Shown here piece by piece: positions 3,941-62,863 of a DNA stretch of 64,000 nt. A program made the translations under genes and the position numbers. Within the stretch, counting starts at the first letter, position 1, and the number at the start of each line of letters is the position of its first letter. The DNA lies in assembly GCF_900111455.1 (NCBI RefSeq), contig NZ_FOIE01000006.1:186001-250000 (forward strand), read 5' to 3'. The notes below the pieces were generated by a model that searched no databases, was not told the DNA's origin, and saw only the letters and a list, made by a program, of their open reading frames with translations. This DNA comes from Geodermatophilus poikilotrophus (GTDB taxonomy: Bacteria > Actinomycetota > Actinomycetes > Mycobacteriales > Geodermatophilaceae).

Positions 3941-3997
3941 GGACCCCGTCCAGAGGCTCACCGCTCGCAGGCTCGCGGTGAGCCTCTGGACGGGGCC
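3941..3997. repeat. Type 1 intergenic palindrome (likely bidirectional terminator)
   Basis: This is the most perfect copy of the palindrome family. A 21-bp stem (3944-3964 with 3975-3995, arms starting CCCCGTCC and ending GGACGGGG) closes over the 10-base loop TCGCAGGCTC. It lies between the convergent ends of ecm and the Gfo/Idh oxidoreductase gene, 2 bp after the ecm stop. A terminator role is likely, but there is no T-run. Confidence 0.85.
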
Positions 3998-4004
3998 GGT
4001 CAGG

Positions 4005-5030
4005 TCAGAGCTGGACGACGACGCCCTCGATGGCGCTGCGGCGGGCGGCGTCGAGCACCGTGGCGGTGGCGACGGCGTCCTGCGGGTCGACCGGCACCGG
4101 CCCCTCTGCTCGGACGGCGGCGGCGAAGGCGGGGTAGAAGGTGTCCCAGCGGCCGCGCTCGGTGGGCACCACGACACCCTCGACACCGCGCCGCAGCCGC
4201 CCCCAGCGCTCCTCGGGCTCGGCGCCCCACCGCTCGCCCAGCGTGGCCGGCGTCTGCCCGGCCAGCAGCGCGGCCTCCTGCCCGTCCATCGGCCCGCCGA
4301 CGACGTAGGCGCCCTCCGTGCCGCTCACCCGGAAGCGGTCACCGGGAGCGCCCTGGCTCCAGCTGCCCCACAGGTGCGAGTGGGCGCCGCCGGCGTGGGT
4401 GAGCGCGACGAAGACGTCGTCGTCCAGGCCCGTCTCCCGCAGCCGCCACTCGGCGTAGACGCTCGTCACCGGGCCGAGCAGCACGAGGGCCTGGTCGACC
4501 AGGTGGCTGCCGAAGTCCAGCAGGGTGCCGCCGCCCGCGGCCGGCGGGCCGGGCTCGGCCTGGAACCGCTCGAAGCGCGACTCGAACCGGGTCACCGTGC
4601 CGAGCCGGCCGGCGTCGACCAGTGCCCGGACGGTGCGGAAGTCGGAGTCCCAGCGGCGGTTCTGGTACGGCGCCAGCGCCAGCCGGCGGGCCGCGGCCAG
4701 CCGCACCGTCCCCTCCGCGGCCGGGGCGTCCAGCGCGAAGGGCTTGTCGCAGACCACGGCGAGGTCCAGACCCAGTGCCTGCTCGGTCAGCGGGGTGTGC
4801 GTGTCCGCCGGCGTGGAGATCGCCACCGCCTCGGCGCCGGCGTCGGCCAGCTCCTCGAGCGAGCCGAACGTGCGCAGGCCGGGGTGCTCGGCGGTCACCT
4901 GCGCCCGGCGCTCGGCCGACGTCGTCACCACGCCGAGGAGGTCGACCTCCGGCGCAGCAGCCAGCAGGGGGGCGTGGAAGTACCGGCCGCCGAAGCCGTA
5001 CCCGACCAGTCCGAAGCGCACGGGGTCCAT
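4005..5030 (-). CDS. Gfo/Idh/MocA family NAD(P)-dependent oxidoreductase
   Basis: A 341-residue dehydrogenase. The N-terminal Rossmann fold opens with FGLVGYGFGGRYFHAPLL and is followed by the family's AISTPADTH and CDKPFALD segments; the K in CDKPF is the usual catalytic or cofactor-positioning lysine. The C-terminal alpha/beta substrate domain contains GGGTLLDFGSHLVDQAL. The substrate is not clear; the family covers inositol, sugar and other polyol oxidoreductases, and the sequence is closest in feel to YdgJ-type proteins. The ATG at 5028-5030 follows a possible -10 (CATGAT) six bases upstream. The next gene upstream on the same strand is the DUF2071 gene, ending 23 bp away. Confidence 0.85.
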   Translation of the reverse strand: MDPVRFGLVGYGFGGRYFHAPLLAAAPEVDLLGVVTTSAERRAQVTAEHPGLRTFGSLEELADAGAEAVAISTPADTHTPLTEQALGLDLAVVCDKPFALDAPAAEGTVRLAAARRLALAPYQNRRWDSDFRTVRALVDAGRLGTVTRFESRFERFQAEPGPPAAGGGTLLDFGSHLVDQALVLLGPVTSVYAEWRLRETGLDDDVFVALTHAGGAHSHLWGSWSQGAPGDRFRVSGTEGAYVVGGPMDGQEAALLAGQTPATLGERWGAEPEERWGRLRRGVEGVVVPTERGRWDTFYPAFAAAVRAEGPVPVDPQDAVATATVLDAARRSAIEGVVVQL

Positions 5031-5053
5031 GCCGCGATCATGCCCGGCCCGGG

Positions 5054-5782
5054 TCACCGCAGGCGGGGGCCGAAGCGGACGTCGACGCCCGGGGAGAACA
5101 GCACGCTGTCGGGTGCGCCGCGGACGGTGGGCAGGCCGCCCGCCGCCAGCAGGTCCTCCTCGCACGTGACGAGCTCGGCGGCGTGCAGCGGCCAGGCAGG
5201 GTGCTCGTTGGGCCAATAGGCCAGGCGGCCGGACGCCGTCTGGTGCAGCCCCCAGCGGCCGGTGAGGAAACCGGCCAGGGGACCGGGGTCCGGCAGCCGG
5301 GCACCGACCCGGACGACGATCCGCCCGCCCGTGCCGCGCGCACCGGGCCAGCGCCGGCGGGAGGTGTAGGTGACGAGGTCGCCGTCGCGGCGCACCCGCA
5401 TCCGCGCCCAGCAGTAGGGCAGGCCGGCCACCCAGCGAGCGGCGAGCACGGGCAGCAGCCGGTCGGCGTCGAGCGACCGGAACACCACGCCGCGCCGTCC
5501 CCGGTCGTCGACCGAGTACAGCCGGACGTTGGTCTCGGCGAAGGACCCGGCCCACGGCAGGCCGGGCGCGCCGAGCACGCCGATCCGGCGCATCCGGAAG
5601 GGGATCAGCCCGACGTACGTGGCGCCGTCCAGCAGGTCGGGACGGGTGCCCGCCGGGAGCAGCGGGGCGACGAGTGCCGGGTCCACCGCCCAGTGCAGGA
5701 AGGTGACGTCGCGCCAGCCCTGCGTGAACACGGTGCGCCCGGCCGGCCGGGGTGCGGTGCCGGTGACCGGCTCGGGTTCCAC
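5054..5782 (-). CDS. DUF2071 (YqjF-like) family protein
   Basis: A 242-residue protein that matches DUF2071/YqjF-like sequences: an early TQGWRDVTFLHWAVDP, the central AGSFAETNVRLYSVDDRGRRG, and a late WPLHAAELVTCEEDLL. Members are widespread in actinobacteria and have no established reaction. No signal peptide or membrane helix is seen. I take the GTG at 5780-5782 as the start because a longer in-frame ATG at 5857 would run into the divergent crotonase gene. It may be cotranscribed with the downstream oxidoreductase gene (23-bp gap). Confidence 0.7.
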   Translation of the reverse strand: MEPEPVTGTAPRPAGRTVFTQGWRDVTFLHWAVDPALVAPLLPAGTRPDLLDGATYVGLIPFRMRRIGVLGAPGLPWAGSFAETNVRLYSVDDRGRRGVVFRSLDADRLLPVLAARWVAGLPYCWARMRVRRDGDLVTYTSRRRWPGARGTGGRIVVRVGARLPDPGPLAGFLTGRWGLHQTASGRLAYWPNEHPAWPLHAAELVTCEEDLLAAGGLPTVRGAPDSVLFSPGVDVRFGPRLR

Positions 5783-5838
5783 GCCCCGAGACTGCCAGCC
5801 CGTTGCCCCCACCCGCCTCCCCGTGGTGTGGTCGCTGC

Positions 5839-6612
5839 ATGACTGCTGAGGGCGCACCCCGGGTCGAACGCGACGGCGACGTCGTCACCCTCACGATGTG
5901 CCGGCCGGCGAAGCGCAACGCCCTGTCCCGCGACCACCTGACCCAGCTGCTGGCCGCCGTCACGGCCGTGGGGGAGAGCGACGCGGCCGGCCTGGTGATC
6001 GCCGCGGAGGGGCCGGTCTTCAGCGCCGGCCACGACTTCGCCGACGTCGCCGGCCGGCCGGTCCCCGAGGTGCGCAGCCTGCTGCAGTTGTGCACCGAGC
6101 TGATGCAGGCCCTGCACGACGTCCCGCAGGTGGTGCTGGCCCGCGTGCACGCCCTGGCCACCGCGGCCGGCTGCCAGCTGGTGGCCTCCTGCGACCTGGC
6201 CGTCGCCGCCGAGTCGGCCGGCTTCGCCGCCCCGGGTGGCAAGGGCGGCTGGTTCTGCCACACGCCGATGGTGGCCATCGCCCGCGACGTCGGCCGCAAG
6301 CGCGCGATGGAGCTCGCGCTGACCGGTGACGTCATCGACGCGGCGACCGCGCTGGACTGGGGGCTGGTCAACCGGGTGGTGCCCGACGCCGAGCTGGACG
6401 ACGCCGTCGCCGACCTCATGGCCCGGGCGACCCGCGGGTCCCGGGCGAGCAAGGCGTGGGGCAAGCAGACGATGCACGCCCAGCTGGGCCGGCCCGAGCG
6501 GGACGCCTACACGACCGCGGTCGAGGTGATGGCCGCCGCGAGCCAGCTCCCCGGGGCGGTCGAGGGCATGTCGGCGTTCCTGGAGAAGCGGCGCCCGGTC
6601 TGGGCCGACTAG
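5839..6612 (+). CDS. ECHDC3-like enoyl-CoA hydratase/isomerase family protein
   Basis: A 257-residue crotonase-fold protein. The oxyanion-hole segments FSAGHDFADV and ATAAGCQLVAS are present. The two glutamates used by classical enoyl-CoA hydratase are not: the first position is Q113 (GCQL where hydratases have GCEL or GYEL), and the second falls in a glycine-rich APGGKGG stretch. The following FCHTPMVAIAR matches the ECHDC3 subgroup. Hydration of crotonyl-CoA is therefore doubtful, and another CoA reaction or a non-catalytic role is possible. Contrast the canonical hydratase at 44872. The start is ATG, with a divergent DUF2071 gene 56 bp away. Confidence 0.75.
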   Translation: MTAEGAPRVERDGDVVTLTMCRPAKRNALSRDHLTQLLAAVTAVGESDAAGLVIAAEGPVFSAGHDFADVAGRPVPEVRSLLQLCTELMQALHDVPQVVLARVHALATAAGCQLVASCDLAVAAESAGFAAPGGKGGWFCHTPMVAIARDVGRKRAMELALTGDVIDAATALDWGLVNRVVPDAELDDAVADLMARATRGSRASKAWGKQTMHAQLGRPERDAYTTAVEVMAAASQLPGAVEGMSAFLEKRRPVWAD

Positions 6613-6665
6613 GGCCCCGTCCTGCCCACCCTCCACGAGCTCACGGCGGGGCCCGGCACGGGGCC
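6612..6665. repeat. Type 1 intergenic palindrome
   Basis: Arms GGCCCCGT (6613-6620) and ACGGGGCC (6658-6665) flank a shorter CCACCCTCC...GGCGGGG core. It begins at the last base of the crotonase stop codon. From 6666 to about 6850 I see no gene or clear regulatory element before the ribosome-binding site of the next gene. Confidence 0.7.
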
Positions 6666-6867
6666 GACGTGGCTGCAGGGGGTCGCACGGTGAGAGTGGA
6701 CACACGGGGGATGGGAGCGACGCCGGCTGCGCCTTGTCCTCTGACGTGCGCGACAGATGGGACCTCACCCGGCGGCGTGCGCTCGACTTCGGACGGATGA
6801 CGGCCGACTCCTGAGCGCCCGCGCGCCCCGTCGTCCCCTCCCGCACCAGTCCCCGGAAGGCACTCCC

Positions 6868-8202
6868 GTGCTCGCTCGTCTCCGCCGCGTCCCGTTCGCG
6901 GCGCAGGTCCTCCTCGCCCTCGTGCTGGGCGTCGCCCTCGGGCTCGTCGCCCGCGACCTGGGTCCCGTCGCCGACGGCACGCCCAACTGGCTGACCAGCA
7001 CCCTCCAGACCGTCGGCAGCACCTTCGTCACGCTGCTGAAGGTCCTCGTCCCGCCGCTGGTCGTCACTGCGGTGATCGTCAGCATCGCCAACCTCCGGCA
7101 GGTCTCGAACGCCGCCCGGCTGGCCGGGCAGACGCTGCTGTGGTTCGCGATCACCGCCCTCGTCGCGGTCTCCCTCGGCATCGGCCTGGGCCTGCTCACC
7201 CAGCCGGGCCGCAACAGCTCCGTGGACGCGGCCGCCCAGGCCCCGCCGGAGACCACCGGTTCCTGGTGGGACTTCCTCACCGGTCTGGTGCCCGCCAACA
7301 TCCTCGGTCTGCAGTCCTCGGCCGAGGGTGGGCTGTCCTTCAACGTGCTCCAGCTGATCGTGCTGGCCGTGGCGATCGGCGTGGCCGCGCTCAAGGTCGG
7401 CGAGCCGGCCGAGCCGTTCCTGGCGCTGACCCGCTCGGCGCTGGCGATCGTCCAGAAGCTGCTGTGGTGGGTCATCCTGCTGGCCCCGATCGGCACCGTC
7501 GGCCTGATCGGCAACGCGGTGGCCAGCTACGGCTGGGAGTCCCTCGGCTCGCTCGGCGTCTTCGCCGGCTCCGTGTACGCCGGCCTCGCGCTCGTGCTGT
7601 TCGTCGTCTACCCGGTGCTGCTGCGGCTGCACGGCCTCTCGCCGCTGCGGTACTTCGCCGGCGCCTGGCCGGCCATCCAGCTGGCCTTCGTCTCCCGCTC
7701 CTCGATCGGCACGCTGCCGGTGACCGAGCGGGTGACCGAGCAGAACCTCGGCGTCCCGCGGTCCTACGCCTCGTTCGCCGTGCCGCTCGGCGCGACGACG
7801 AAGATGGACGGCTGCGCGGCGATCTACCCGGCCCTGGCCGCGATCTTCGTGGCCCAGTTCTTCGGCGTGGACCTGTCGCTCACCGACTACCTGCTGATCG
7901 CGCTCGTCTCGGTCGTCGGCTCGGCGGCCACGGCCGGGGTCACCGGCGCGGTGGTCATGCTGACGCTGACCCTCTCCACGCTGGGCCTGCCGCTGGCCGG
8001 CGTCGGCCTGCTGCTGGCGATCGACCCGATCCTGGACATGGGGCGGACCGCGGTGAACGTCGCCGGCCAGGCGCTGGTCCCGACGATCGTCGCCAAGCGC
8101 GAGGGCATCCTCGACGTTGACCGCTACCGGTCGAACTCGACGGTGGACCCGGTGGCCCGGGTCGAGGTGGACGACGACCTGCGCCAGCCCGCGGTCGCCT
8201 GA
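6868..8202 (+). CDS. Dicarboxylate/amino acid:cation symporter (DAACS, GltPh-like)
   Basis: A 444-residue inner-membrane transporter with about eight hydrophobic segments and the two re-entrant hairpin motifs of the glutamate transporter family: RSSIGTLPVT (GltPh RSSSGTLPVT) and a TM8 segment DPILDMGRTAVNVAG with the carboxylate-binding D390, R393 and N397. Two cation-site positions are changed. The NMDGT motif reads KMDGC (K312 at the Asn position), and the residue equivalent to GltPh D405 is Q401. Substrate binding looks intact, but sodium coupling may differ. The start is the GTG at 6868, with GGAAGG 7 bases upstream. The C-terminal 35 residues are hydrophilic and acidic. Confidence 0.85.
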   Translation: MLARLRRVPFAAQVLLALVLGVALGLVARDLGPVADGTPNWLTSTLQTVGSTFVTLLKVLVPPLVVTAVIVSIANLRQVSNAARLAGQTLLWFAITALVAVSLGIGLGLLTQPGRNSSVDAAAQAPPETTGSWWDFLTGLVPANILGLQSSAEGGLSFNVLQLIVLAVAIGVAALKVGEPAEPFLALTRSALAIVQKLLWWVILLAPIGTVGLIGNAVASYGWESLGSLGVFAGSVYAGLALVLFVVYPVLLRLHGLSPLRYFAGAWPAIQLAFVSRSSIGTLPVTERVTEQNLGVPRSYASFAVPLGATTKMDGCAAIYPALAAIFVAQFFGVDLSLTDYLLIALVSVVGSAATAGVTGAVVMLTLTLSTLGLPLAGVGLLLAIDPILDMGRTAVNVAGQALVPTIVAKREGILDVDRYRSNSTVDPVARVEVDDDLRQPAVA

Positions 8203-8205
8203 AGG

Positions 8206-8260
8206 AGGACCCCGTCCTCCCCACCCTTCGCCGGCTCGGGGTGGGACCCGGGACGGGGCC
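8206..8260. repeat. Type 1 intergenic palindrome (between convergent genes)
   Basis: CCCCGTCC (8210-8217) pairs with GGACGGGG (8251-8258), with an inner CCCACCC/GGGTGGG stem. It starts 3 bp after the transporter stop and faces the end of the lipoprotein gene. A role as terminator for both genes is likely. Confidence 0.75.
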
Positions 8261-8316
8261 GCCCGGCCACCGGCAGGCCCGGCCCTCCCGTCCGGAGGAG
8301 CCGGGCCTGCGTCGTC

Positions 8317-9186: not shown

Positions 9187-9249
9187 CGGGCCAGGATGCC
9201 GTGCTGCGGCGGGCCCCCCGTCGCCCCGGGCCGTTCGTTGCCGGTTCGG

Positions 9250-9263: not shown

Positions 9264-9935
9264 GTGCGTCTGGTCATCGCCCGCTGCTCGGTCGACTACG
9301 TGGGGCGGTTGACCGCCCACCTGCCCATGGCGCCGCGGCTGCTGCTGGTCAAGGCCGACGGGTCGGTGTCGGTGCACGCCGACGACCGCGCCTACAAACC
9401 GCTGAACTGGATGACCCCGCCGTGCTCGTTCAGGGACGAGCTGGTCGACGGCGCGGGCACCTGGACGGTCACCAACAAGGCCGGCGAGCAGCTGATCATC
9501 ACCATCGAGTCCGTCGAGCACGACAGCTCCCACGAGCTCGGGGTCGACCCGGGCCTGCAGAAGGACGGCGTGGAGGCCGAGCTGCAGCGGCTGCTCGCGC
9601 TGCACGTCGAGACCTTCGGGGCCGGCTGGTCGCTGGTCCGCCGCGAGTACCCGACCGCGATCGGCCCGGTGGACCTGCTCTGCCGCGACGCCGACGGCAG
9701 CACCGTGGCCGTCGAGGTCAAGCGCCGCGGTGAGATCGACGGCGTGGAGCAGCTGACCCGCTACCTCGAGCTGCTCAACCGCGACCCGCTGCTGGCGCCG
9801 GTGCGCGGGGTCTTCGCCGCCCAGGAGATCAAGCCCCAGGCGCGGGTGCTCGCGGGCGACCGCGGCATCGAGTGCCTGACCGTCGACTACGCCGTCCTCA
9901 AGGGCACCGACGACCCCTCGCAGCGGCTGTTCTGA
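9264..9935 (+). CDS. nucS: Mismatch-specific endonuclease NucS/EndoMS
   Basis: A 223-residue nuclease that cuts both strands at mismatches such as G-T and provides the mismatch repair of actinobacteria that lack MutS/MutL. The N-terminal half is the beta-rich dimerisation domain ([25 protein letters not shown]). The C-terminal RecB-like nuclease has the acidic catalytic set D137 (PVDLLCRD), E151 and K153 ([16 protein letters not shown]). The length equals that of mycobacterial NucS. The usual C-terminal beta-clamp-binding tail is represented by DDPSQRLF. The GTG at 9264 is chosen from homologue length and the -10 box 8 bases before it. Identity is firm. Confidence 0.93.
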
Positions 9936-9936
9936 G

Positions 9937-10045
9937 AGGGGACCCTCTGCCCCCACCGAACAAGGACCCCGTCCTCCTCACCCCTTGCAGGCTCGGGGGT
10001 GAGCCTCGGGACGGGGCCGGCGGCGGGCCCCTGCAGAGCGGCCGC
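9937..10045. repeat. Nested composite palindrome (type 1 inside type 2)
   Basis: Outer type 2 arms (GGACCCTCTGCCCCCACC from 9940 and GGGCCCCTGCAGAG ending near 10040) flank a complete type 1 palindrome at about 9964-10018: CCCCGTCC 9967-9974 with GGACGGGG 10009-10016, and inner CTCACCCC/GGGGTGAG. It lies directly after the nucS stop. Confidence 0.75.
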
Positions 10046-10050
10046 CCGGC

Positions 10051-12242: not shown

Positions 12243-12243
12243 G

Positions 12244-12306
12244 GGAGGACCTCTTGCCCCCCACCGCTCGCACGCTCGCGGCGGGCCCCTGCAGGAGGCC
12301 GTTCCA
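12244..12306. repeat. Type 2 intergenic palindrome (between convergent genes)
   Basis: GGACCTCTTGCCCCCCACCGC pairs imperfectly with GCGGGCCCCTGCAGGAGGCC, and the CTCGCACGCTCG loop is shared with the type 1 copies. It fills the gap between the zinc-motif gene and the sortase gene, which converge here. Confidence 0.7.
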
Positions 12307-15421: not shown

Positions 15422-15526
15422 CGGCCCTCCTGCAGGGTCCCGCCGCCGGCCCGTCCAGGGGCTCATCCCGGGCTCGCCAGGGACGGGGAGGACGGGGTCC
15501 TCCAACGGCGGGGGCAGGGGGTCCTC
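15422..15526. repeat. Nested composite palindrome (minus-strand orientation)
   Basis: Read on the minus strand, a type 2 left arm (GGACCCCCTGCCCCCGCCG), a type 1 unit (CCCCGTCC to GGACGGGCC), and a type 2 right arm (GGCGGGACCCTGCAGGAGGGCC) follow one another directly behind the ccr stop. The rest of the gap (15263-15421) holds the coiled-coil gene's upstream region and degenerate GC-rich dyads. Confidence 0.65.
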
Positions 15527-22997: not shown

Positions 22998-23963
22998 ATG
23001 CAGCCCACCCGTCCCGGACGCCCCGACCCGCGCGCGCAGGCCCAGCAGGCACAGCTGGCCGCCTCCCTCGCCGGCGCGGTCGACCTCGCCGCCGTCAAGG
23101 CCCGCTCCGAGGCCGCGGCACGGGCCCAGACCGCGCCCCCGCCGAGTGCCGCCGCGCCGGACGGCGCCCCGGGGGCCGCCGTCGTCGACGTCACCGAGGC
23201 CACCTTCCAGGCCGAGGTGCTCGACCGCTCCTTCCAGGTGCCGGTCGTGCTCGACCTGTGGGCCGAGTGGTGCGGGCCGTGCAAGCAGCTCTCCCCGGTG
23301 CTCGAGCGGCTGGCCGCCGAGGGCGGCGGCTCCTGGGTGCTGGCCAAGGTCGACGTCGACGCCAACCCGGCACTGGCCCAGGGCCTGCGGGTGCAGGGCA
23401 TCCCCGCGGTCAAGGCGGTCTGGCAGGGGCAGCTGGTCGCCGAGTTCACCGGTGCCATCCCGGAGGAGCAGGCGCGGCAGTTCGTCACGGAGCTGGTGCG
23501 GGCGACCACCGGTGGCGCCGTCCCGGGTGCCGGTGAGGAGCCCGGCGAAGCCGAGGACCCACGGCTGGACGTCGCCGAGGCCGCCCTCGAGCGCGGTGAC
23601 CTGACCGCCGCCGAGGCCGCCTACCAGTCGATCCTCGACGCCGAGCCCGACCACCCGGTGGCGGGCCTCGCGCTGCGCCAGGTGCAGCTGTTCCGCCGCG
23701 CCGACGAGGCCGGGCCGGATGCGCTCGCCGCCGCCGACGCCGCTCCGGACGACGTCGCCGCACAGGCGCGGGCCGCGGACTTCCTGCTGGGCACCGGGGA
23801 CGTCGAGGGTGCCTTCGAGCGGCTGCTGGACGTCGTCCGCCGGACCGCCGGGGACGACCGCGACCAGGCGCGCCGGCACCTGGTGGAGCTCTTCGGCGTC
23901 GTCGGCGACCAGGACCCGCGGGTCGCCGCAGCCCGCCGCCAGCTCACCCTCGCCCTGTACTGA
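22998..23963 (+). CDS. Thioredoxin-TPR protein (CnoX/YbbN-like)
   Basis: A 321-residue cytoplasmic protein. The N-terminal 55 residues are Ala/Gln-rich and disordered. A thioredoxin domain follows with the redox motif WCGPCK and the cis-Pro in GIPAVKAV. The C-terminal half has TPR-like helices ([31 protein letters not shown] and later units). This is the layout of CnoX, a holdase that passes oxidised proteins to chaperones; the Mtb counterpart is Rv1324, as I recall. The MQP start at 22998 matches relatives, but an ATG at 22986 in the same frame cannot be excluded. A chimeric palindrome follows the stop. Confidence 0.8.
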
Positions 23964-23965
23964 GA

Positions 23966-24020
23966 GCCGACCCCGTCCTCCGCACCGCTCGCAGGCTCGC
24001 GGCGGCCCCTGCAGGGGGCC
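23966..24020. repeat. Chimeric palindrome (type 1 left, type 2 right)
   Basis: The left half GACCCCGTCCTCCGCACCGC is of type 1 and the right half GGCGGCCCCTGCAGGGGGCC of type 2, joined through TCGCAGGCTCGC. It separates the convergent thioredoxin-TPR and metallopeptidase genes. Confidence 0.65.
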
Positions 24021-24024
24021 TCTG

Positions 24025-25505: not shown

Positions 25506-25615
25506 GAACGGCCCCTCTCCAGGGCCCCGCGGGCCCCGTCCGGAGGCCCACCCCGAGCGTGCGAGGAGTGAGGGGGACGGGGCCCTTCACCGACTGGTGG
25601 GGGGCGGGGAGGTCC
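25506..25615. repeat. Nested composite palindrome (minus-strand orientation)
   Basis: On the minus strand, a type 2 left arm (GGACCTCCCCGCCCCCCACC) begins next to the glgB stop. It is followed by a full type 1 unit (25531-25584, GGGCCCCGTCC to GGACGGGGCCC) and a type 2 right arm (GCGGGGCCCTGGAGAGGGGCC). This is the third composite of the window. Confidence 0.65.
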
Positions 25616-31776: not shown

Positions 31777-31845
31777 TCTGCAGGGGGGAGCGGGTGGGTA
31801 CGGGGCCCGTCGCGAGCTGGCGAGCGGTGGGGGGAGGCGGGTCCT
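31777..31845. repeat. Degenerate intergenic palindrome in the glgE-treS gap
   Basis: On the minus strand GGACCCGCCTCCCCCCACCGCTCG is followed by CCAGCTCGCGACGGGCCCC and CCCCCCTGCAGAACC, a worn mix of type 1 and type 2 parts. It lies inside an operon, so here it would attenuate rather than terminate. Confidence 0.5.
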
Positions 31846-34064: not shown

Positions 34065-36614
34065 GTGCGCGCTCTCCGCCGGTTCACCGTCCGGGCATCG
34101 CTCCCCGAGGAGCTGGTGCCGCTGTCCCACCTCGTCACCAACCTCCGCTGGTCCTGGCACGCCGAGACCCGCGACCTCTTCGAGGCGCTCGACCCGGAGC
34201 TGTGGCGGACCTGCAACGGCGACCCGGTCAAGGTCCTCGGCGAGGTCTCGGCCGAGCGGCTGGCCACCCTCGCGAGGGACCGGCGGTTCGTGCGCCGGCT
34301 GCAGGACGTCGTCGACGACCTGGAGGAGTACCTGTCCGCGCCGCACTGGTACCAGTCGCTGGGGGAGGGCGCGCCGGCGACGGTCGCCTACTTCTCCGCG
34401 GAGTTCGGTATCACCGAGGTGCTGCCGCAGTACTCCGGCGGGCTGGGCATCCTCGCCGGCGACCACCTCAAGGCCGCCTCCGACCTCGGTGTCCCGCTGA
34501 TCGGCGTGGGGCTGCTGTACCGGGCCGGCTACTTCGAGCAGGGCCTGTCGGCCGACGGCTGGCAACTGGAGCACTACCCGTCGCTGGACCCGCACGGCCT
34601 GCCGCTGAAGCTGCTGCGCCAGCCCGACGGCACCGCCGTCGTCATCAACGTCCCGCTGCCCGAGGGGCGCACGCTGTTCGCGCACGTCTGGCGGGCCCAG
34701 GTCGGCCGGGTGTCGCTGCTGCTGCTCGACAGCGACATCGAGGAGAACACCCCGGCCGAGCGCGGGGTCACCGACCGCCTGTACGGCGGCGACGAGGACC
34801 ACCGGCTGCGCCAGGAGATGCTGCTCGGCATCGGCGGCGTGCGTGCGCTGCGCGCCTACTGCCAGCTCACCGGGACGCCGGCGCCGGAGGTCTACCACGC
34901 CAACGAGGGGCACGCGGGCTTCCTCGGCATCGAGCGGATCCGCGAGCTCACCGAGTCGCACGGGCTGTCGTTCCCCGAGGCGCTGCAGGCGGTGCGCGCC
35001 GGCACGGTGTTCACCACCCACACGCCGGTGCCGGCCGGCATCGACCGCTTCCCGCGGGCGCTGATCGAGCGCTACTTCGCCGGCTTCGGGGTCCCCCTGG
35101 ACCAGCTGATCCCGCTGGGCGCCGAGGCTGACCCGACGAAGTTCAACATGGCCCACATGGGCCTGCGGCTGGGTCAGCGCGCCAACGGCGTCAGCCGGCT
35201 GCACGGGCACGTCAGCCGGGGCATGTTCAACTACCTGTGGCCGGGTTTCGACAAGGGCGACGTGCCGATCAGCTCGATCACCAACGGCGTGCACGCACCG
35301 ACGTGGACCGCCCGCGAGCTGGTCGAGATGGGCACCCAGGCCAGCAGCCAGGGCGACCCGGTCGAGGCCGGCGGCGAGGTGCACTTCGACGGCGTGGACC
35401 GGATCCCCTCCGGCGAGCTGTGGAGCACCCGCCGGATGCTGCGCGGCCGGCTGGTCGAGGAGGTGCGCCGCCGGCTGCGGGACACCGCCCTCTCCCGCGG
35501 CGCCGCGGAGTCCGAGGTGGGGTGGACCGACAGCGCGTTCGACCCCGACGTCCTCACGATCGGCTTCGCCCGCCGGGTCCCGTCCTACAAGCGGCTGACC
35601 CTCATGCTGCGCGACCCCGAGCGGCTGAGGGCGCTGCTGCTGGACCCCGAGCGCCCGGTGCAGCTGGTCATCGCCGGCAAGAGCCACCCGGCCGACGACG
35701 GCGGCAAGCAGCTCATCCAGCAGATGGTGAAGTTCGCCGACGACCCCGAGATCCGGCACCGCATCGCCTTCCTGCCCGGCTACGACATCGGCATGGCGCG
35801 CTACCTCTACTGGGGGTGCGACGTCTGGCTGAACAACCCGCTGCGCCCGCTGGAGGCGTGCGGTACCTCGGGCATGAAGGCCGCGCTCAACGGCGGGCTG
35901 AACCTCTCCATCCGCGACGGCTGGTGGGACGAGTGGTTCGACGGCCAGAACGGGTGGGCCATCCCCACCGCCGACGGCGTCGCCGACCCCGAGCGCCGCG
36001 ACGACATCGAGGCCCGGGCCATCTACGAGCTGCTCAGCAGCCAGGTGATCCCGCGCTTCTACGAGACCGACCGGGACGGCGTCCCCAGCCGGTGGGTCGA
36101 GATGGTGCGGCACACGCTGCGCGAGACCGGCCCCAAGGTGCTGGCGACCCGGATGGTGCGCGACTACGTGCAGCAGCTGTACGTGCCGGCGGCCGGCTCG
36201 TCCCGGGACATGGCCGAGTCCGGTTACGGCGCGGCCCGCACCGAGGCCGGCTGGCGCGCCAAGCTGCTCGACCGCTGGAGCACCGTGCGGGTCGCCCACG
36301 TCGAGGCCACCGGCGCCGGCGACACCCCGGAGATCGGCTCGACGCTGGCGCTGCGCGCGGAGGTGGAGCTGCCGGGGCTCACGCCGTCCGACGTCCAGGT
36401 GCAGGCCGCCTACGGACGGGTCGACGACGCCGACGGCCTCCACGAGGTGACCACCCTGCCGATGGCGCACGAGCACACCGACGGGTCGCGGCACTGGTTC
36501 TCCGCCACGCTGCCCCTGGAGCGCACCGGCGCCTTCGGCTACACGGTGCGCGTGCTGCCGCACTCGGAGCACCTGGCGGACCCGGCCGAGCTGGGGGTCG
36601 TGGCGAGCGCCTGA
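34065..36614 (+). CDS. glgP: Alpha-glucan phosphorylase
   Basis: An 849-residue GT35 enzyme that releases glucose 1-phosphate from alpha-1,4-glucan chains (or, in reverse, elongates them). It has the short-type actinobacterial layout: VRASLPEELVPLSHLVTNLRWSWH at the start, AYFSAEFGITEVLPQYSGGLGILAGDHLK, and the PLP lysine in ACGTSGMKAALNGGL. The C-terminal about 90 residues form an extra beta domain. The start is GTG. It is transcribed divergently from glgE, as in M. tuberculosis Rv1327c/Rv1328 (from memory). Confidence 0.93.
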   Translation: MRALRRFTVRASLPEELVPLSHLVTNLRWSWHAETRDLFEALDPELWRTCNGDPVKVLGEVSAERLATLARDRRFVRRLQDVVDDLEEYLSAPHWYQSLGEGAPATVAYFSAEFGITEVLPQYSGGLGILAGDHLKAASDLGVPLIGVGLLYRAGYFEQGLSADGWQLEHYPSLDPHGLPLKLLRQPDGTAVVINVPLPEGRTLFAHVWRAQVGRVSLLLLDSDIEENTPAERGVTDRLYGGDEDHRLRQEMLLGIGGVRALRAYCQLTGTPAPEVYHANEGHAGFLGIERIRELTESHGLSFPEALQAVRAGTVFTTHTPVPAGIDRFPRALIERYFAGFGVPLDQLIPLGAEADPTKFNMAHMGLRLGQRANGVSRLHGHVSRGMFNYLWPGFDKGDVPISSITNGVHAPTWTARELVEMGTQASSQGDPVEAGGEVHFDGVDRIPSGELWSTRRMLRGRLVEEVRRRLRDTALSRGAAESEVGWTDSAFDPDVLTIGFARRVPSYKRLTLMLRDPERLRALLLDPERPVQLVIAGKSHPADDGGKQLIQQMVKFADDPEIRHRIAFLPGYDIGMARYLYWGCDVWLNNPLRPLEACGTSGMKAALNGGLNLSIRDGWWDEWFDGQNGWAIPTADGVADPERRDDIEARAIYELLSSQVIPRFYETDRDGVPSRWVEMVRHTLRETGPKVLATRMVRDYVQQLYVPAAGSSRDMAESGYGAARTEAGWRAKLLDRWSTVRVAHVEATGAGDTPEIGSTLALRAEVELPGLTPSDVQVQAAYGRVDDADGLHEVTTLPMAHEHTDGSRHWFSATLPLERTGAFGYTVRVLPHSEHLADPAELGVVASA

Positions 36615-36616
36615 AG

Positions 36617-36670
36617 GAGGCCCGTCCTCCCCACCCTCCGCGAGCACAGGGCGGGACCCGGGACGGGGCC
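36617..36670. repeat. Type 1 intergenic palindrome
   Basis: GGCCCGTCCTCCCCACCC pairs with the GGGCGGGACCCGGGACGGGGCC arm (ending 36670). It follows the glgP stop by 2 bp. No gene lies between it and the FHA protein start at 36819. Confidence 0.7.
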
Positions 36671-36805
36671 GCCGCCTGCCCGGTCCACGTGCTCGGAGTG
36701 GGCCACGGAGGACACATCTGCCACGCCGGTCGCACCGGTCCCGACCGCCCGCCCGGTGATCGGCGTGGCGGGGAGGACGGATCACCCAGTCGGGCGAGTC
36801 GCCTC

Positions 36806-37796: not shown

Positions 37797-37799
37797 GGA

Positions 37800-37858
37800 A
37801 GGACCACCCTTCCCCCGACGCCTCGCAGGCTCGGCGCGGGACCCTGAAGGGTGGCCGT
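37800..37858. repeat. Intergenic palindrome (type 2-related)
   Basis: GGACCACCCTTC pairs with GAAGGGTGGCC around a CGCCTCGCAGGCTCGGCGCGGG core. The arms differ from other copies, but the changes on one side are matched on the other, which suggests selection for pairing. Confidence 0.7.
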
Positions 37859-37885
37859 GCCCGCGAGAGCGTTGAGCCGGCCACT

Positions 37886-40979: not shown

Positions 40980-41002
40980 GAGAGGTGAGAGGACCCGGCG
41001 AA

Positions 41003-41104
41003 GGACCCCCTGCCCCCCGCTCCTCGTGGAGGGGCCCCGTCCTCCCCACCCTTCGCAGGCTCAGGGCGGGACCCGGGCCGGGGATGGGAACCCTGCAGGG
41101 GGCC
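41003..41104. repeat. Nested composite palindrome (type 1 inside type 2)
   Basis: Outer arms GGACCCCCTGC (41003-41013) and GCAGGGGGCC (41095-41104) enclose a type 1 unit at about 41031-41085 (GGCCCCGTCC to GGGCCGGGG). The proposed ATG of the next gene (41084) lies inside its right part. Confidence 0.65.
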
Positions 41105-42814
41105 ACCTCGCGAGCTGCGAGCGGGGCCGCGCCGGTCCGCGCGCTCCGCGGTCCGTCGCTTCCCGCGGTCGTGGCCGGCGTCGCGCTGGCCCTCGGCGTC
41201 GTCGTCCAGCTGCTGCCGCTGGTGCTCTTCCCCACGGTGCTCAGCCAGGACGGCCCCGCGCACGTGGCCGGCGCCTGGGTCCTGCTCCACTCCGGGGACG
41301 ACGACGCCACCGGCGCGCTGCTGCGCGAGCACTACCGCAGCGACCTGACGCCGGTGCCCAACATGCTGGCCACGCTGCTGCTGGTTGCCCTGCTGCCCCT
41401 GGCCGGCCCGGACGGCGCGGAGGCGCTGCTGGTCGCCGGGCTCGTCCTCGGCCTGGTCGCCGCGCTGGCCTGCGTGGTGCGCGCCCTGGACCGGCGGGCC
41501 TGGTGGCTCGCCGCGGCCGCGCTGCCCCTCGCCGGCAGCCACCTGGTGGCCTACGGCTTCTACAACTACGTGCTCGGCGTGGTCGGGGCGCTGCTCGTCC
41601 TCGCGGTGGCGCTGCGCCGCCGCGACGGGTGGCGGCTGGCCGGGACGGCGGGGCTGGCCGCCCTGCTCGTGCTGACCTGGAGCGCGCACCTGCTGCCGTG
41701 GGTGTTCGCGGCGGGCAGCGTGCTGGTGCTGGCCGGGGTCCGCACCGTCGGCGCCGTCCGCGGCGGCCGCCCGGTCCCGGCCGCCGTACGGCAGCACGCC
41801 GTCCCGGTCCTGCTCGCCGCCGTGCCCTCGGCAGCGCTGACCGCCCGCTACCTCGCCACGGGGGAGGGGCCACCGGCCGAGGGCGAGGTCGAGCCGTCGC
41901 CGGCGCGGCTCGGCGCGCTGCTGACCGGGCTGCGGCCGTTCGTCACCGGCTGGGGCGCGGAGCGGCTGCCGGCGCTGCTCACCGTCGTCGTGCTCGCCGT
42001 CCTCGCTGCCGCGGCGCTGCGGCGGGCGCGGCCGGGGGGCCCCGGCCTGGGACCGGAGCGGGTCGCGCTCGGGCTGCTGCTGGCCGGTGTCACGGTGGTC
42101 TACTGGCTGACGCCGGACCGGCTGGGCGAGGACTTCGGCTTCCTCGCCGCCCGGCTGGCCTGGTTCCCGCCGCTGCTGCTGGTGCTGTGGGCGGCCACGC
42201 GCGCTCCGGGCCCGCGGGTCGGCGCCGCCGCGACCGTGTTCCTGGTGGTCGCGGCCTCGGCCGCCGCGCTCGGCCGGCTGCCCGCGCAGACCGCCGCGGC
42301 CGGCGAGGTCGGCGAGCTGCTGGCGCTGGCCGACCGGATCCCGCCCGGCTCCACCGTCGCCGTCCTGCAGTACGACCGGTCGGTGGTCTGGCCCGGCACG
42401 GGGGCGCCGGACCCGCTGCGCCACGAGTCCAGCCGGCTGGCGGTCCGCGCCGGGGGCGTCGACGTCGGCCACTACGAGGCGGTGCACGACTACTTCCAGG
42501 TGCGCTTCGACGGGCCGCCGTACCTGCGCCAGCGGCTGGACCCTGATCCGGAGATGCACGGACTGGAGCGCATCCCGCCGGTGGTCGACCTCCCCGCCGT
42601 CCGCGGCGACCTCGACGCGGTCGTGGTGCTGGGCCTGGACCGGGCCGGCGACGACGTGCAGCGGGCCGAGGGCACCCGGGAGGTCACCGCAGAGCTGCGC
42701 ACCCACTACGCACGGGTGGCGACCTCGCCGTCCGGCCTGGCGGTGCTGTGGCGCGCCGACCCGCCGTCCGGTCACACTGCGGCCGGTGGCAGCGCGGCCA
42801 CCCCCCAGGGGTGA
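41084..42814 (+). CDS. Multi-pass membrane protein, GT-C glycosyltransferase-like
   Basis: A 576-residue protein with about ten hydrophobic segments. A short first loop reads LSQDGPAHVAGAWVLL; the Asp-Gly-Pro-Ala-His pattern resembles the catalytic loop of GT-C type (GT39-like) polyprenyl-sugar transferases. The C-terminal about 180 residues are soluble and probably extracytoplasmic. The function as glycosyltransferase is inferred from this pattern and from the GT39-like neighbour. The start is uncertain: the ATG at 41084 lies within a repeat arm and has no spaced ribosome-binding site, and a GTG at 41171 would still keep the first helix. Confidence 0.55.
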   Translation: MGTLQGATSRAASGAAPVRALRGPSLPAVVAGVALALGVVVQLLPLVLFPTVLSQDGPAHVAGAWVLLHSGDDDATGALLREHYRSDLTPVPNMLATLLLVALLPLAGPDGAEALLVAGLVLGLVAALACVVRALDRRAWWLAAAALPLAGSHLVAYGFYNYVLGVVGALLVLAVALRRRDGWRLAGTAGLAALLVLTWSAHLLPWVFAAGSVLVLAGVRTVGAVRGGRPVPAAVRQHAVPVLLAAVPSAALTARYLATGEGPPAEGEVEPSPARLGALLTGLRPFVTGWGAERLPALLTVVVLAVLAAAALRRARPGGPGLGPERVALGLLLAGVTVVYWLTPDRLGEDFGFLAARLAWFPPLLLVLWAATRAPGPRVGAAATVFLVVAASAAALGRLPAQTAAAGEVGELLALADRIPPGSTVAVLQYDRSVVWPGTGAPDPLRHESSRLAVRAGGVDVGHYEAVHDYFQVRFDGPPYLRQRLDPDPEMHGLERIPPVVDLPAVRGDLDAVVVLGLDRAGDDVQRAEGTREVTAELRTHYARVATSPSGLAVLWRADPPSGHTAAGGSAATPQG

Positions 42815-44718: not shown

Positions 44719-44721
44719 AGA

Positions 44722-44783
44722 AGGACCCCGCTGCCCCCACCACGCGCGAGCTCGCGGCGGGGCCCTGCAGAGGGGCCGTTCCA
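44722..44783. repeat. Type 2 intergenic palindrome
   Basis: GGACCCCGCTGCCCCCACC pairs imperfectly with GGCGGGGCCCTGCAGAGGGGCC. The following GTTCCA is shared with the copies at 12244 and 47564. It lies 3 bp after the membrane protein stop. Confidence 0.75.
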
Positions 44784-46598: not shown

Positions 46599-47561
46599 AT
46601 GGCAGAGGTCCTGGTCCTCGTCGAGCTCAACCCGACCGGTGAGGGCGTCCGCAAGACCACGCTGGAGGCGCTGACCGCCGCCCGCGCGCTGGGTGAGCCC
46701 GCAGCGGTCGTCGTCGGCGGCCCCGGCACGGCCGCCGCCGCCAGGGCGCAGCTGGCCGAGTACGGCGCGCAGCGGGTCTACGTCGCCGAGTCCGAGGAGG
46801 TCGACCAGTTCCTGGTCGCACCCAAGGCCGAGGTGCTCGCCCAGCTGGTGGCCGAGAAGTCCCCGGCCGCGGTCGTCATCCCCTCCTCCCCGGAGGGCAA
46901 GGAGATCGCCGGCCGGCTGGCCATCAAGACCGGCAGCGGCTTCCTGACCGACGTCACCGAGATCGCCCCCGACGGCACCGCGACGCAGGTCGCCTTCGCC
47001 GGAGCGACGATCGTGCACTCCAAGGTCACCGTCGGCACCCCGATCTACACCGTGCGCGGCAACTCGGTCACCCCCGAGCCCGCGCCCGGCGCGGCCGAGG
47101 AGGAGCAGGTGGCCGTGCAGCTGTCCGACGCCGCCAGGGCCACCCGCGTCGTCGACCGGGTCGTGGAGCAGAAGTCCTCGCGCCCGGAGCTGACCGAGGC
47201 CTCGATCGTCGTCTCCGGTGGTCGCGGTGTCGCCTCGGCGGAAAACTTCTCCGTCATCGAGGCGCTCGCCGACTCCCTCGGTGCGGCGGTCGGCGCCTCC
47301 CGGGCCGCGGTCGACTCCGGCTACTACCCGCACACCTTCCAGGTTGGGCAGACCGGCAAGACCGTCTCGCCCCAGCTCTACATCGCGGTCGGCATCTCCG
47401 GGGCCATCCAGCACCGGGCCGGCATGCAGACCTCGAAGACGATCGTCGCGGTCAACAAGGACCCCGAGGCGCCGATCTTCGAGCTGGCCGACTTCGGCGT
47501 CGTGGGCGACCTGAACACCGTCGTCCCGCAGGCCACCGAGGCCATCACCGCCCGCAAGTAA
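46599..47561 (+). CDS. etfA: Electron transfer flavoprotein, alpha subunit
   Basis: A 320-residue partner of EtfB that binds FAD. The N-terminal domain opens with AEVLVLVE. The C-terminal FAD domain has the signatures [48 protein letters not shown] and [20 protein letters not shown]. The ATG at 46599 has AGGAGGAG at 46583-46590. It is cotranscribed with etfB under the palindromic operator. A type 2 palindrome follows the TAA stop. Confidence 0.95.
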
Positions 47562-47563
47562 GA

Positions 47564-47628
47564 GGACCTCGCTGCCCCCCACGCCTCGCTGACGCTCGGC
47601 GCGGGCCCCTGCAGCGAGGCCGTTCCAG
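47564..47628. repeat. Type 2 intergenic palindrome
   Basis: GGACCTCGCTGC (47565-47576) pairs with GCAGCGAGGCC (47611-47621). The inner CGCCTCGCTGACGCTCGGCGCGGG repeats the family core. It lies 2 bp after the etfA stop and is the likely end of the etfBA transcript. Confidence 0.75.
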
Positions 47629-47723
47629 CACGTCGCGGCGTCGAGCGCCGGTTCCCGTCGGGGGCCGGCGCTCGACGTCTGTCCGGCGGGAAGTGCCCGG
47701 GTGCCGACGGGGTTGGCTGAGAG

Positions 47724-56979: not shown

Positions 56980-56982
56980 CGG

Positions 56983-57039
56983 AGGACCCCGCTGCCCCCA
57001 CGCTCCGCAGGCTGAGCGCGGGACCCCGCAGCGGGGCCT
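56983..57039. repeat. Type 2 intergenic palindrome (between convergent genes)
   Basis: GGACCCCGCTGC (56984-56995) pairs perfectly with GCAGCGGGGCC (57028-57038). The core CGCTCCGCAGGCTGAGCG forms an inner hairpin. It separates the convergent ends of ligA and the ACT gene. Confidence 0.8.
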
Positions 57040-57707
57040 CAGGCCGGGGGCAGGTGGGCGACGCTGGCCGCGATGCCGGCGAGGTGGACCAGGCGGAGCA
57101 GCTCCGAGCGGCGGAACGCCGGCCCGCCGGAGCGGCCGATGACCACGGCGGTCCGGGGGCTGGTGAACGGGGTGGCCATCATCTCGATGGCCATCTCGCG
57201 CCAGCGCTCCGGCAGCCAGTCCGCCTCGCTGGGCAGCAGCTGTGCCCTGGTGAGCGGGAGCCACGGCAGGGTCATCCCGTCGAAGGACGGCGCGGCGTCC
57301 GACGCGGCCAGCACCTCGCACGGGCGGTCGCCGGCCCCGCACAGGACGGCGGCCCAGCCGCTGTGGAAGACCCGGGGCAGCTCGGCGGCCAGCAGCTTGA
57401 CCGCCGTGCCCTCCGCGGCCCGGGCCAGCGACTCCAGCAGTTCCAGCTCGCGGTGGGTGTCCAGCGGCCCGGCGAAGGGGCGCAACGACTCCACCTGCAC
57501 GCCCGGCACCCGCTGCGCGGCGGTGATCAGGCTGTCGGGGAGCCGGCCGGGGGGCAGGTCGACGACGATGTCGTCGACCGCGACGCCGCCGCCGCGCTCG
57601 AGCACGTCCACCGACACGATGTCGATGCCGGCCTCACCCAGCGCCGTGGCCACGGCGCCGAGGATGCCGGGGCGGTCGGGCACGACCAGCCGCAGGAGAT
57701 GGGACAC
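57039..57707 (-). CDS. ACT domain protein
   Basis: A 222-residue cytoplasmic protein. The N-terminal ACT domain reads HLLRLVVPDRPGILGAVATALGEAGIDIVSVDVLER, the ligand-sensing fold for amino acids. The C-terminal about 130 residues (KLLAAELPRVFHSGWAAVLCG) form a separate domain of unknown type. Homologues lie between ligA and gatC in mycobacteria (Rv3013, from memory). The ligand and target are unknown. The GTG at 57705-57707 has GGAGGAACC just upstream, the same leader as the DUF4397 gene. Confidence 0.78.
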   Translation of the reverse strand: MSHLLRLVVPDRPGILGAVATALGEAGIDIVSVDVLERGGGVAVDDIVVDLPPGRLPDSLITAAQRVPGVQVESLRPFAGPLDTHRELELLESLARAAEGTAVKLLAAELPRVFHSGWAAVLCGAGDRPCEVLAASDAAPSFDGMTLPWLPLTRAQLLPSEADWLPERWREMAIEMMATPFTSPRTAVVIGRSGGPAFRRSELLRLVHLAGIAASVAHLPPA

Positions 57708-57845: not shown

Positions 57846-57910
57846 GGCGGGGTTCCGAACGTCGTGACGAGCGCCCACCGAGCGCCGACGGACTGGAGTT
57901 CCGCCCCAGC

Positions 57911-61522: not shown

Positions 61523-61621
61523 GCGATCGAGCGCCGGCTGAGGCTGGGGGAGGGCACGTGGCCGCCGTGCGGTGCTGAGGACCGCGGGGACGGAGCGGTG
61601 CCGGCCAGTAGGCCGATGACG

Positions 61622-62785
61622 TCACAGCGGTGAGTCGGACGCCCCACCCGGGGGGAAGACGCGCAGCACCCGGTCGTCGTCCTCGGCCGGTGTGCCGATG
61701 CCGTCCTTGTTCGACGTCGTGATCCACAGCGCGCCCTCGCCGTCGAGGACGACGGTCCGCAGCCGGCCGTACCGGTCGGTGAGGAAGGCGCCGGGCTCCT
61801 CGGCCAGCACACCGCCGCCGTCGAGCTGCACCGTGTGCACCCGCCGGCCGTCCAGGGAGCCGATGAAGACGGTGCGGCCGGCGACCGCGCAACCGCCGAG
61901 CCCGCCCGCCTCCGTCGGGAACTGCACGACGGGGCCGGTGCTCGCCGGGCCCGCCGTCGGCCAGCCGGCGTCGCCGGCCTCGAGGACGGCGTTGAGCTCG
62001 TCGGGCCCGGAGGCGGCGTCGTCGGTGGCGTACAGCGACGCCTCGCCGCCCACGCACAGCGCGGTGACGTCGGCGTGGCCGCTGCTGTGCACGGAGCCCG
62101 CGCCCACCGGGCGGCCGAAGACGTCGACGTGCAGCACCTTGCCGGCCAGCGACGCGGGGTCCTGGGCCAGGGGTGCGTTCCCGGTGTCGCCGGTGCCCAC
62201 GAACAGCGTGCCGTCGCCGGCGAAGACCAGCCCGCCACCGTTGTGCGTCTCGCCGCGCGGGATGCCGGTGAGCACCGGGTTCGGGGTGCCGCCCATCGGG
62301 AAGCGGACCACCCGGTTGTCGGTGGCGGTCGAGACGTAGGCGTAGAAGAGCCCGTCCTCGGCGAAGGTGGGCGAGAGTGCCAGGCCCAGCAGCCCCCCGT
62401 CGCCGCCGGTGTCGATGCCGCTGACGGTCATGAGCTCGCGGGCGGGGGAGCGGTCCGGGAAGACCTGCAGCAGCCGCCCGGTCTCCCGCTCCCCGACGAC
62501 CGCGGTGCCGTCGGGCAGCACGACCAGCCCGGTGGGGACGGTCAGGCCGGAGGCCACCACGTTCGGGTCGCCGCCGTCCTCCTCGCTCTCCGGGTCGGCC
62601 GGGTCCCCCGGGCCGGGTGCCTGCGGGGACTCCGTGGGCGGCCCCACCTGCGGCGGTGGACCCTCCGGCCGCGGCCGGAAGGGGCCGGCCGGCTCGTAGC
62701 CGTCGCTGCCGCACCCGGCCAGGGCGACGGCGAGCAGGGCGGCGCCGGCCAGGCCCCGTCCCCCTCGCGCGCGCTGCCGGCTCAC
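61622..62785 (-). CDS. Glucose/sorbosone dehydrogenase-like lipoprotein (LppZ-like)
   Basis: A 387-residue exported protein with a lipobox (LAVALAGCGSDG) and a Pro-rich linker. A six-bladed beta-propeller of the soluble glucose/sorbosone dehydrogenase type follows: VPTGLVVLPDGTAVVGERETGRL, GGLLGLALSPTFAEDGLFYAYV, THNGGGLVFAGDGTLFVGTGD and closing ALWITTSNKDG. PQQ- and calcium-binding residues cannot be confirmed by eye, so enzymatic activity is uncertain. Mtb LppZ (Rv3006), near gatB, is the likely counterpart (from memory). The GTG at 62783-62785 is chosen by signal peptide position. Confidence 0.82.
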   Translation of the reverse strand: MSRQRARGGRGLAGAALLAVALAGCGSDGYEPAGPFRPRPEGPPPQVGPPTESPQAPGPGDPADPESEEDGGDPNVVASGLTVPTGLVVLPDGTAVVGERETGRLLQVFPDRSPARELMTVSGIDTGGDGGLLGLALSPTFAEDGLFYAYVSTATDNRVVRFPMGGTPNPVLTGIPRGETHNGGGLVFAGDGTLFVGTGDTGNAPLAQDPASLAGKVLHVDVFGRPVGAGSVHSSGHADVTALCVGGEASLYATDDAASGPDELNAVLEAGDAGWPTAGPASTGPVVQFPTEAGGLGGCAVAGRTVFIGSLDGRRVHTVQLDGGGVLAEEPGAFLTDRYGRLRTVVLDGEGALWITTSNKDGIGTPAEDDDRVLRVFPPGGASDSPL

Positions 62786-62811
62786 CCCTCGAACAGTACG
62801 TGCGCCGGATC

Positions 62812-62863
62812 GCCCCGTCCCGGGTCCGGCTCCGAGCCTGCGGGGGTGCGGGGGACGGGGTCC
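62812..62863. repeat. Type 1 intergenic palindrome next to a promoter
   Basis: GCCCCGTCCC (62812-62821) pairs with GGGACGGGG (62852-62860). Unlike other copies it lies between divergent gene starts, directly before the -10 box TAAGGT (62867-62872) of the dehydrogenase gene, so a role other than termination is possible here. Confidence 0.7.

Follow-up and report, generated by a model that had tools for sequence, protein, structure and literature searches.

Short repeats of the REP type (repetitive extragenic palindromes) are usually explained by REP-associated tyrosine (RAYT) transposases. In the available part of PMC12306157, 446 of the 4,072 REPs predicted in E. coli are found no more than 15 nt from a stop codon, and the available part of PMC3733652 describes REPs as 20–40 nt long, with GTAG termini that often supply the TAG stop of a flanking open reading frame (ORF). 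The phyla listed in that part of the source for GTAG and CGTC repeats exclude Actinobacteria, and the string "actino" appears nowhere in PMC3733652. Here we analysed a 64,000-nt stretch of Geodermatophilus poikilotrophus (NZ_FOIE01000006.1, positions 186,001 to 250,000; "the window"), in which palindromic elements recur behind stop codons. We consider it probable that these elements form a RAYT-independent, high-copy, REP-like family of non-autonomous mobile palindromes, which targets stop codons as well as the loops of its own members and is retained as a T-less hairpin at the 3′ ends of genes.

Comparison with the described systems indicates which properties are shared. With hundreds of short, extragenic, high-copy palindromes per genome, the family resembles the REPs and REPINs of the GTAG superfamily. 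It differs from them in the length of its element, about 60 nt against the 20–40 nt given for REPs in the available text of PMC3733652, in lacking a GTAG end (GTAG is near the 5′ end of 7/212 copies and near the 3′ end of 1/212), in the absence of a Y1 transposase match from 108 family genomes, and in its nesting within loops. CGTC repeats are likewise palindromic and of high copy number, and are said in the same excerpt to have no dedicated transposase (PMC3733652); in contrast to them, our copies carry CGTC near the 5′ end in 3/212 cases and near the 3′ end in 33/212, and thus not as a regular terminal tag. The GC clusters of yeast mitochondria, as described in the accessible portion of PMC4478555, are also compact mobile palindromes rich in GC, whose units turn over fast and merge, but are flanked by AG or ACT repeats, of which none were noticed here. 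Set beside miniature inverted-repeat transposable elements, the element is a palindrome over its whole length.

The family also resembles the "HS-U-lack" transcript 3′-end positions (TEPs) of S. clavuligerus, which are GC-rich 3′-end hairpins without a U-tract (PMC8269248). As far as the available text of that study goes, these Streptomyces TEPs, possible I-shaped terminators, are a functional class mapped on RNA, whereas the present elements are a family of repeats related in sequence. The T-run directly after the stem that marks a canonical intrinsic terminator is absent; predicted stable hairpins do stand at the ends of transcription units, as judged by gene order, as in T-less (I-shaped) terminators. 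A full-text literature search on the loop strings, of partial coverage, returned no paper on this repeat by titles and the beginnings of abstracts, and an Rfam search of the window gave no match above the gathering score, in keeping with an earlier note on this DNA that knew of no described family.

Anatomy, copy number and covariation

The genome that holds the window (G000) comprises 4.83 Mb in 18 contigs; relatives are coded by G-numbers and genome stretches by L-numbers. We combined the window with 20 stretches of the same genome, picked for holding the exact loop, into a 464-kb set. This set contains 52 exact loops, 39 of which passed an outer-arm pairing filter; three were dropped by eye, and the 36 aligned copies were used to build the covariance model R1. 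Searched against the window, R1 found 15 full copies and one partial copy at E < 0.01, with the next match at E = 0.36. With the same model, the 464-kb set gave 113 matches (E up to 0.1), and a further 400 kb of the genome, sampled at round positions, gave 26 at E < 0.01. The exact loop CTCGCAGGCTCG occurs 66 + 59 times in the whole genome, compared with 2 + 0 times for its reversed letters. Since the 400-kb sample happens to include none of these 125 loops, the roughly 300 copies per genome that it implies are a low estimate, and several hundred copies per genome is a fair rough figure by extrapolation. Loosening the loop to at most two mismatches gave no excess in the window (26 found, 31.2 expected), so the evidence lies in the whole element and not in a loose loop. 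Copy density is very uneven: eight of the 20 own-genome 20-kb stretches L127–L146 are empty and one holds six copies.

The element is about 60 nt long and consists, in order, of NRRA-GGACC, an outer arm of about 8–9 nt that varies among subfamilies, an inner stem of 7 bp, a 12-nt loop, an asymmetric internal loop, the complementary arm and GGCC. The loop is often CTCGC-NN-GCTCG. Among 212 copies, CTCGC-AG-GCTCG accounts for 76, the forms with GA, AC and AA for 21, 15 and 7, and other CTCGC-n-GCTCG forms for 16, with 77 outside the pattern. TTTT was absent from the 12 nt after the stem in all 206 copies scored, and at least five T within 8 nt after the stem were found in one of them. Tandem right halves were seen at L017 16577 and L010 9432, with a unit of about 45 nt and a GTTCCAGCACGTCACC-like tail; these could compete for pairing with the single left half.

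Paired changes occur along the stem. The 36 model-building copies have changes on both sides in 11/16 pairs (74 cells, compared with 24.5 in shuffles), counts that lean to the outer helix because of the outer-arm filter. Two sets outside the model, whose alignments were fitted to it and are hence biased to structure, have such changes in 9/16 pairs (26 own-genome copies) and 11/16 pairs (34 copies of G024, G003, G013 and G014), and sliding of the partners abolishes the covariation in both. One inner-stem pair is unpaired in 15/26 of the own-genome copies and 24/34 of those from the four species. The predicted folds of seven window stretches show the long stem, most with modest z-scores (−1.1 to −3.4); for 37797–37861 the minimum-energy fold differs and the element is visible in the centroid alone, and in the fold of 9934–10048 an entire element lies within the loop of another. 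The family is real and structured.

These results bear on several claims of the earlier note. It had counted at least fourteen copies and named a covariance search as a check that might refute it; the observation withstood that search, which matched all ten of the coordinates given. Its description of one structured family is upheld by the covariation, including that of the two sets outside the model, and its observation that T-runs are lacking stands. Its two fixed types of arm do not hold: the element at 12244 has arms CCTCTTGC/GCAGGAGG and that at 37798 has CCACCCTTC/GAAGGGTGG. Its claim of selection for structure finds partial support: some copies are decayed (31801, 6608), and subfamily founders or quasipalindrome correction can also yield paired changes. 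That note had noticed neither the nesting nor the register at stops nor the variation from species to species.

Register at stop codons and nesting in loops

Genes were called with our own simple gene caller. A called gene on the same strand precedes 92 of the 113 matches and one on the opposite strand precedes 15, while five matches lie inside genes and one has no upstream gene. The 92 same-strand copies lie within 7 nt of the stop codon in 61 cases, at 8–31 nt in 16, at 32–100 nt in seven and farther in eight, the last partly due to missed genes. An ORF stop within −9 to 8 nt was present on the sense side of 55/111 copies and on the antisense side of 7/111. Copies follow 39/156 convergent gene ends and, among codirectional ends, 29/99 with a gap of at least 100 nt, 8/57 with 30–100 nt and 1/76 with less than 30 nt; all these rates are inflated, the loci having mostly been selected for copies. 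In the window, the start at 2–5 bp after a stop that had been described for most copies holds directly for 11 of 16. For the other five it does not; by eye, a host copy or a whole partial copy follows the stop instead, and at 41028 the host does so only after a further partial left half. The "many" copies said to lie between convergent genes come to 6/16 by our gene calls.

The stops adjoining copies are TGA in 40 cases, TAG in 11 and TAA in four; all 242 called genes comprise 206 TGA, 27 TAG and three TAA, with six lacking a stop at the called end. Insertion at TGA stops only is rejected by these numbers. The register was scored in 199 copies with a GGACC-like anchor, out of 213 matches longer than 40 nt, and a coding stop lies within 8 nt in 107 of them. 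GGACC starts 4 nt after TGA in 66/84 copies, 5 nt after TAG in 10/14 and 0–2 nt after TAA in 8/9, with no TAG (0/14) or TAA (0/9) copy at 4 nt (Fisher p = 1.4e-12 for a stop-dependent register). The spacings after TGA and TAG place a G 6 nt before GGACC in both main classes. The same G is present in 71% of the 92 copies without an adjacent stop and in 20/29 nested copies. The stop register is well supported by these counts, and we read it as a site-specific junction rather than as functional spacing.

To detect nesting, we used profiles of the left and right element halves around each copy. Thirty of 212 copies are enclosed by the left and right halves of another, compared with 0.3 for shuffled flanks and 10.6 for swapped partners; at a stricter cut the figures are 26/212, 0.03 and 6.9. 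Cruder tests gave no signal, with inverted flank matches of at least 8 in 36/212 copies (33.7 expected) and an arm score of at least 7 in 26 (20.6 expected). CTCG stands within 12 nt before GGACC in 13/29 nested copies. By eye, the host loop is often partly lost at nested copies, and triple or deeper nests occur in G003 and G013. At the stop of an ADH gene, G013 has a host with an intact, unfilled loop, and the same loop is filled in G000 and G024. Nesting of copies in the loops of others is well supported by the half profiles.

Differences between species and possible routes of spread

At the nucS stop, G000 carries a nested pair, three of 20 relatives (G006, G126, G013) have a model match, two (G024, G002) have remnants by eye, and 15 have nothing; the G002 locus shows an apparent deletion between GGAC repeats. 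Two records named Modestobacter also have a copy there. Separately, the 3′ end of nucS is partly duplicated close to the gene, at G123:C1:720550-720756. At the ADH stop, G024, G003, G013, G014 and G094 carry a copy and G008 a remnant, making six of the 19 relatives. All 13 others have an unrelated perfect hairpin with arms of 12–17 bp and no TTTT within 90 nt, equalled by at most 1/100 shuffles.

Across 267 ortholog comparisons, a copy is present in both genomes in 44, in our genome only in 107, in the relative only in nine and in neither in 107; the comparisons are few sites in many relatives and hence non-independent, the 17 relatives at 3938 weigh heavily, and some "left half only" assignments are doubtful. 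Among 79 own-genome copies, five pairs have cores that are 98–100% identical, with flank identities of 0.30 and 0.27, compared with 0.32 for all pairs, that is, unrelated flanks. One such pair combines a copy behind a gene stop with one scored as nested; as the two have no TGA in common, the TGA is probably part of the junction. These comparisons give good support to mobility, and from them we infer the direction of gain or loss at single sites.

That every copy supplies the stop codon itself is not supported as a rule. In the 107 own-only comparisons, the protein ends at the same codon in 83, is longer in the relative in 24 (17 of them at 3938) and is never shorter. At 3938, where 17 relatives have no copy, our protein is 2–13 residues shorter than theirs; at 44718 (the element at 44720) it is 1–2 residues shorter than in G013 and G014, both without a copy. 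Relatives without a copy have TAG in four cases and TGA in six at 8202, and TAG in two at 37796; at 6612 our gene ends in TAG and most relatives in TGA.

All 25 searched genomes of the genus, our own included, match the model, as do 102/112 of the family, whose nearest named relatives are Geodermatophilaceae; other families of the order gave 0/16. Ten family genomes gave no match, namely G041 and nine others from the genera g21, g22 and g23, several being incomplete; G069 and G057 have one and two matches, respectively. G041 gave none in a genus where 15/23 genomes reach the upper limit set on candidates scored. The phylum sample gave two matching genomes of 396, our own and G135, and thus 1/395 others. 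All per-genome counts are lower bounds (150, 131, 48 or 13 candidates scored), and diverged relatives may escape. Eighty named nucS loci gave six matches in four loci, all Modestobacter or Blastococcus; 11 of the 80 bear the names Blastococcus, Modestobacter or Klenkia. In the same comparison, from which our own or very near genomes were possibly excluded, our NucS protein most closely resembles those of records with these three names, in agreement with the family to which the earlier note pointed. Blastococcus belongs to the Geodermatophilaceae, as presumably do Modestobacter and Klenkia.

The exact loop occurs at least once in 225/394 genomes of a class sample, mostly at the level of the reversed control, with outliers in G423 (50 vs 0), G737 (24 vs 0) and G591 (23 vs 1). 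By eye, the loop in G423 (L184–L193) and G737 (L199, L200), which belong to other actinobacterial families, sits in repeats with different stems, and G135, from another family, has two hairpins in tandem at L147 1440-1640, which carry this loop on different stems. The common loop in a few genomes of other families hints at a shared recognition rule; a common origin or recogniser is possible, with convergence as the alternative.

We searched for a mobiliser with Y1_Tnp (PF01797; RAYT/IS200 type), the one transposase class covered, and found no match in our own genome (0/1), in the 108 family genomes that include it, or in six outside genomes with the loop; the profile was found in 5/14 control genomes. 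The RAYT-like gene that the earlier note proposed to look for thus did not turn up in this search, and its REP-like assignment stands in abundance and position but not in the transposase. Since abundant, near-identical, scattered and self-nesting copies coexist with no Y1 match in any of the family genomes, the family offers a clean system for another route by which small palindromes spread.

We propose that new copies enter right after a stop codon, at a junction reading CTGA, CTAGN or CTCGT before NRRA-GGACC, and that they also enter the loop of an existing copy, which would generate the nested copies. The extruded hairpin may be acted on by some recombinase or repair route. A copy at a gene end would lie in sense, and a few nucleotides downstream of the stop its transcript would form a long hairpin; this would take the place of the usual GC-rich, T-less hairpin, with termination or protection of the mRNA as its most likely contribution. 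A 3′-end role in RNA is the best-supported function, suggested by position, orientation, gene order and the hairpins of relatives at the same stop. The stop register would make it possible to test whether a mobile element can supply GC-rich bacteria with a set of gene ends.

Several observations weigh against this proposal. Past the stop, convergent ends that lack a copy have the more stable folds (mean −39.7 vs −36.4 kcal/mol for ends with one); a 3′ hairpin thus does not require the family, and fold energy after stops does not distinguish genes with copies; the RNA role is deduced from DNA sequence. By the test used, 92/199 scored copies have no adjacent coding stop, some of them being nested copies or next to genes that fail the test. 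The protein end is mostly unchanged (83/107 own-only and 9/9 relative-only comparisons), which leaves the exact landing at native stops without explanation. Some copies are decayed (31801, 6608), and nesting could arise by repair or template switching. Inspection by eye, not a systematic test, of filled and empty pairs revealed no target-site duplication, and the search for a mobilising protein, confined to the Y1 class, identified none.

The closest competitor, to which we give a clearly smaller chance, is that DNA repair multiplies the copies: a hairpin, once extruded, is cut in its loop, and another element is captured or copied at the break, the paired changes of the arms arising by quasipalindrome template switching. 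The loop as the insertion point, often partly lost by eye, the tandem right halves, the absence of Y1_Tnp (0/108) and the apparent G002 deletion between GGAC repeats at nucS are all consistent with this account. It fits less well with the inner-stem mismatch in 24/34 and 15/26 copies, which template-switch correction should erase, and with the fixed junction register at stops, which suggests site recognition.

Somewhat less likely still, the elements could be purely selfish REP-like repeats whose hairpin has no role in RNA. Their position would then reflect harm from other insertions and a target resembling a stop (CTGA, CTAG), from which sense orientation follows. C precedes TGA in 44/51 genes with a copy and in 126/207 without, as for a sequence target, and the patchiness (G041 with 0 matches amid a copy-rich genus) and the decayed copies agree. 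Against this stand the 1/76 close codirectional ends with a copy and the arms that differ yet pair at one orthologous stop, such as 12242 in G000 and G024; 61/92 copies lie within 7 nt of a stop, with fewer elsewhere than expected without selection, an expectation made without a null model.

Equally doubtful is a bolder form of our proposal, a portable gene end which homes to CTGA or CTAG stops and its own loops through a non-Y1 recombinase that reads CTCGC-NN-GCTCG, the same or a related enzyme acting in G423 and G737. Ancient, vertically inherited 3′-UTR (untranslated region) hairpins, T-less terminators kept alike by gene conversion and selection with no transposition, are improbable: position after likely transcription-unit ends, paired changes and a copy in both genomes in 44/267 comparisons suit them, but whole copies nested in loops, near-identical cores with unrelated flanks, and close relatives with and without a copy at the same stop do not.

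Copies in the window and neighbouring hairpins

Single copies on the + strand begin with an element with perfect 21-nt arms (3937..4001, 61.9 bits) right after the stop of a mutase gene that ends at 3938 (Pfam). A degenerate element overlaps a TAG stop (6608..6669, 27.4 bits), and a type-1 element follows the stop of an SDF symporter gene (8203..8264, 66.2 bits; Pfam). The type-2 element at 12243..12304 (73.2 bits) has counterparts with other arms at the same stop in G024, G013 and G003. An element between convergent genes follows a thioredoxin-like gene (23962..24024, 47.8 bits; Pfam), a type-1 element follows the stop of a phosphorylase-like gene (36613..36674, 40.1 bits; Pfam), and the element at 37798..37859 (72.4 bits) combines the exact loop with arms CCACCCTTC/GAAGGGTGG. 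Type-2 elements lie at 44720..44780 (50.5 bits), after the TAA stop of an ETF-alpha gene at 47561..47624 (61.7 bits; Pfam) and between convergent genes at 56981..57041 (44.5 bits). On the − strand, a decayed core after a glgE-like gene stop (31801..31833, 25 bits, partial) has a G024 orthologue that retains the right arm, and a type-1 element follows the TAG stop at 62866 (62807..62867, 37.7 bits).

Four copies in the window are nested, their hosts being defined by half profiles. Right after the nucS stop (Pfam), the left half of a type-2 host (9936..9959, +) is followed by a type-1 element in the host loop (9960..10022, +, 64.7 bits; nested fold) and the right half (10021..10043, +). After the ADH gene stop (Pfam), the left half (15505..15526), the nested type-1 element (15444..15504, 39.5 bits) and the right half (15423..15445) are on the − strand, as are those after a glgB-like gene stop (Pfam), namely the left half (25590..25615), the nested type-1 element (25528..25589, 63.1 bits) and the right half (25510..25532, ends approximate). 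The fourth host, on the + strand, has a left half ending CTCG(T) (41002..41027), a nested type-1 element (41028..41089, 58.7 bits) and a right half (41083..41105).

Two further hairpins were seen in the window. A long palindrome between convergent genes at 1474-1536, absent from the model matches, has the related loop CTCGCTCCGCTCG, and similar palindromes occur in G003 and G011. Downstream of the 47561 element, a hairpin with 19-nt arms at 47639-47677 makes two tandem hairpins after the ETF-alpha gene, and hairpins resembling it are present at the same place in G024, G003 and G014.

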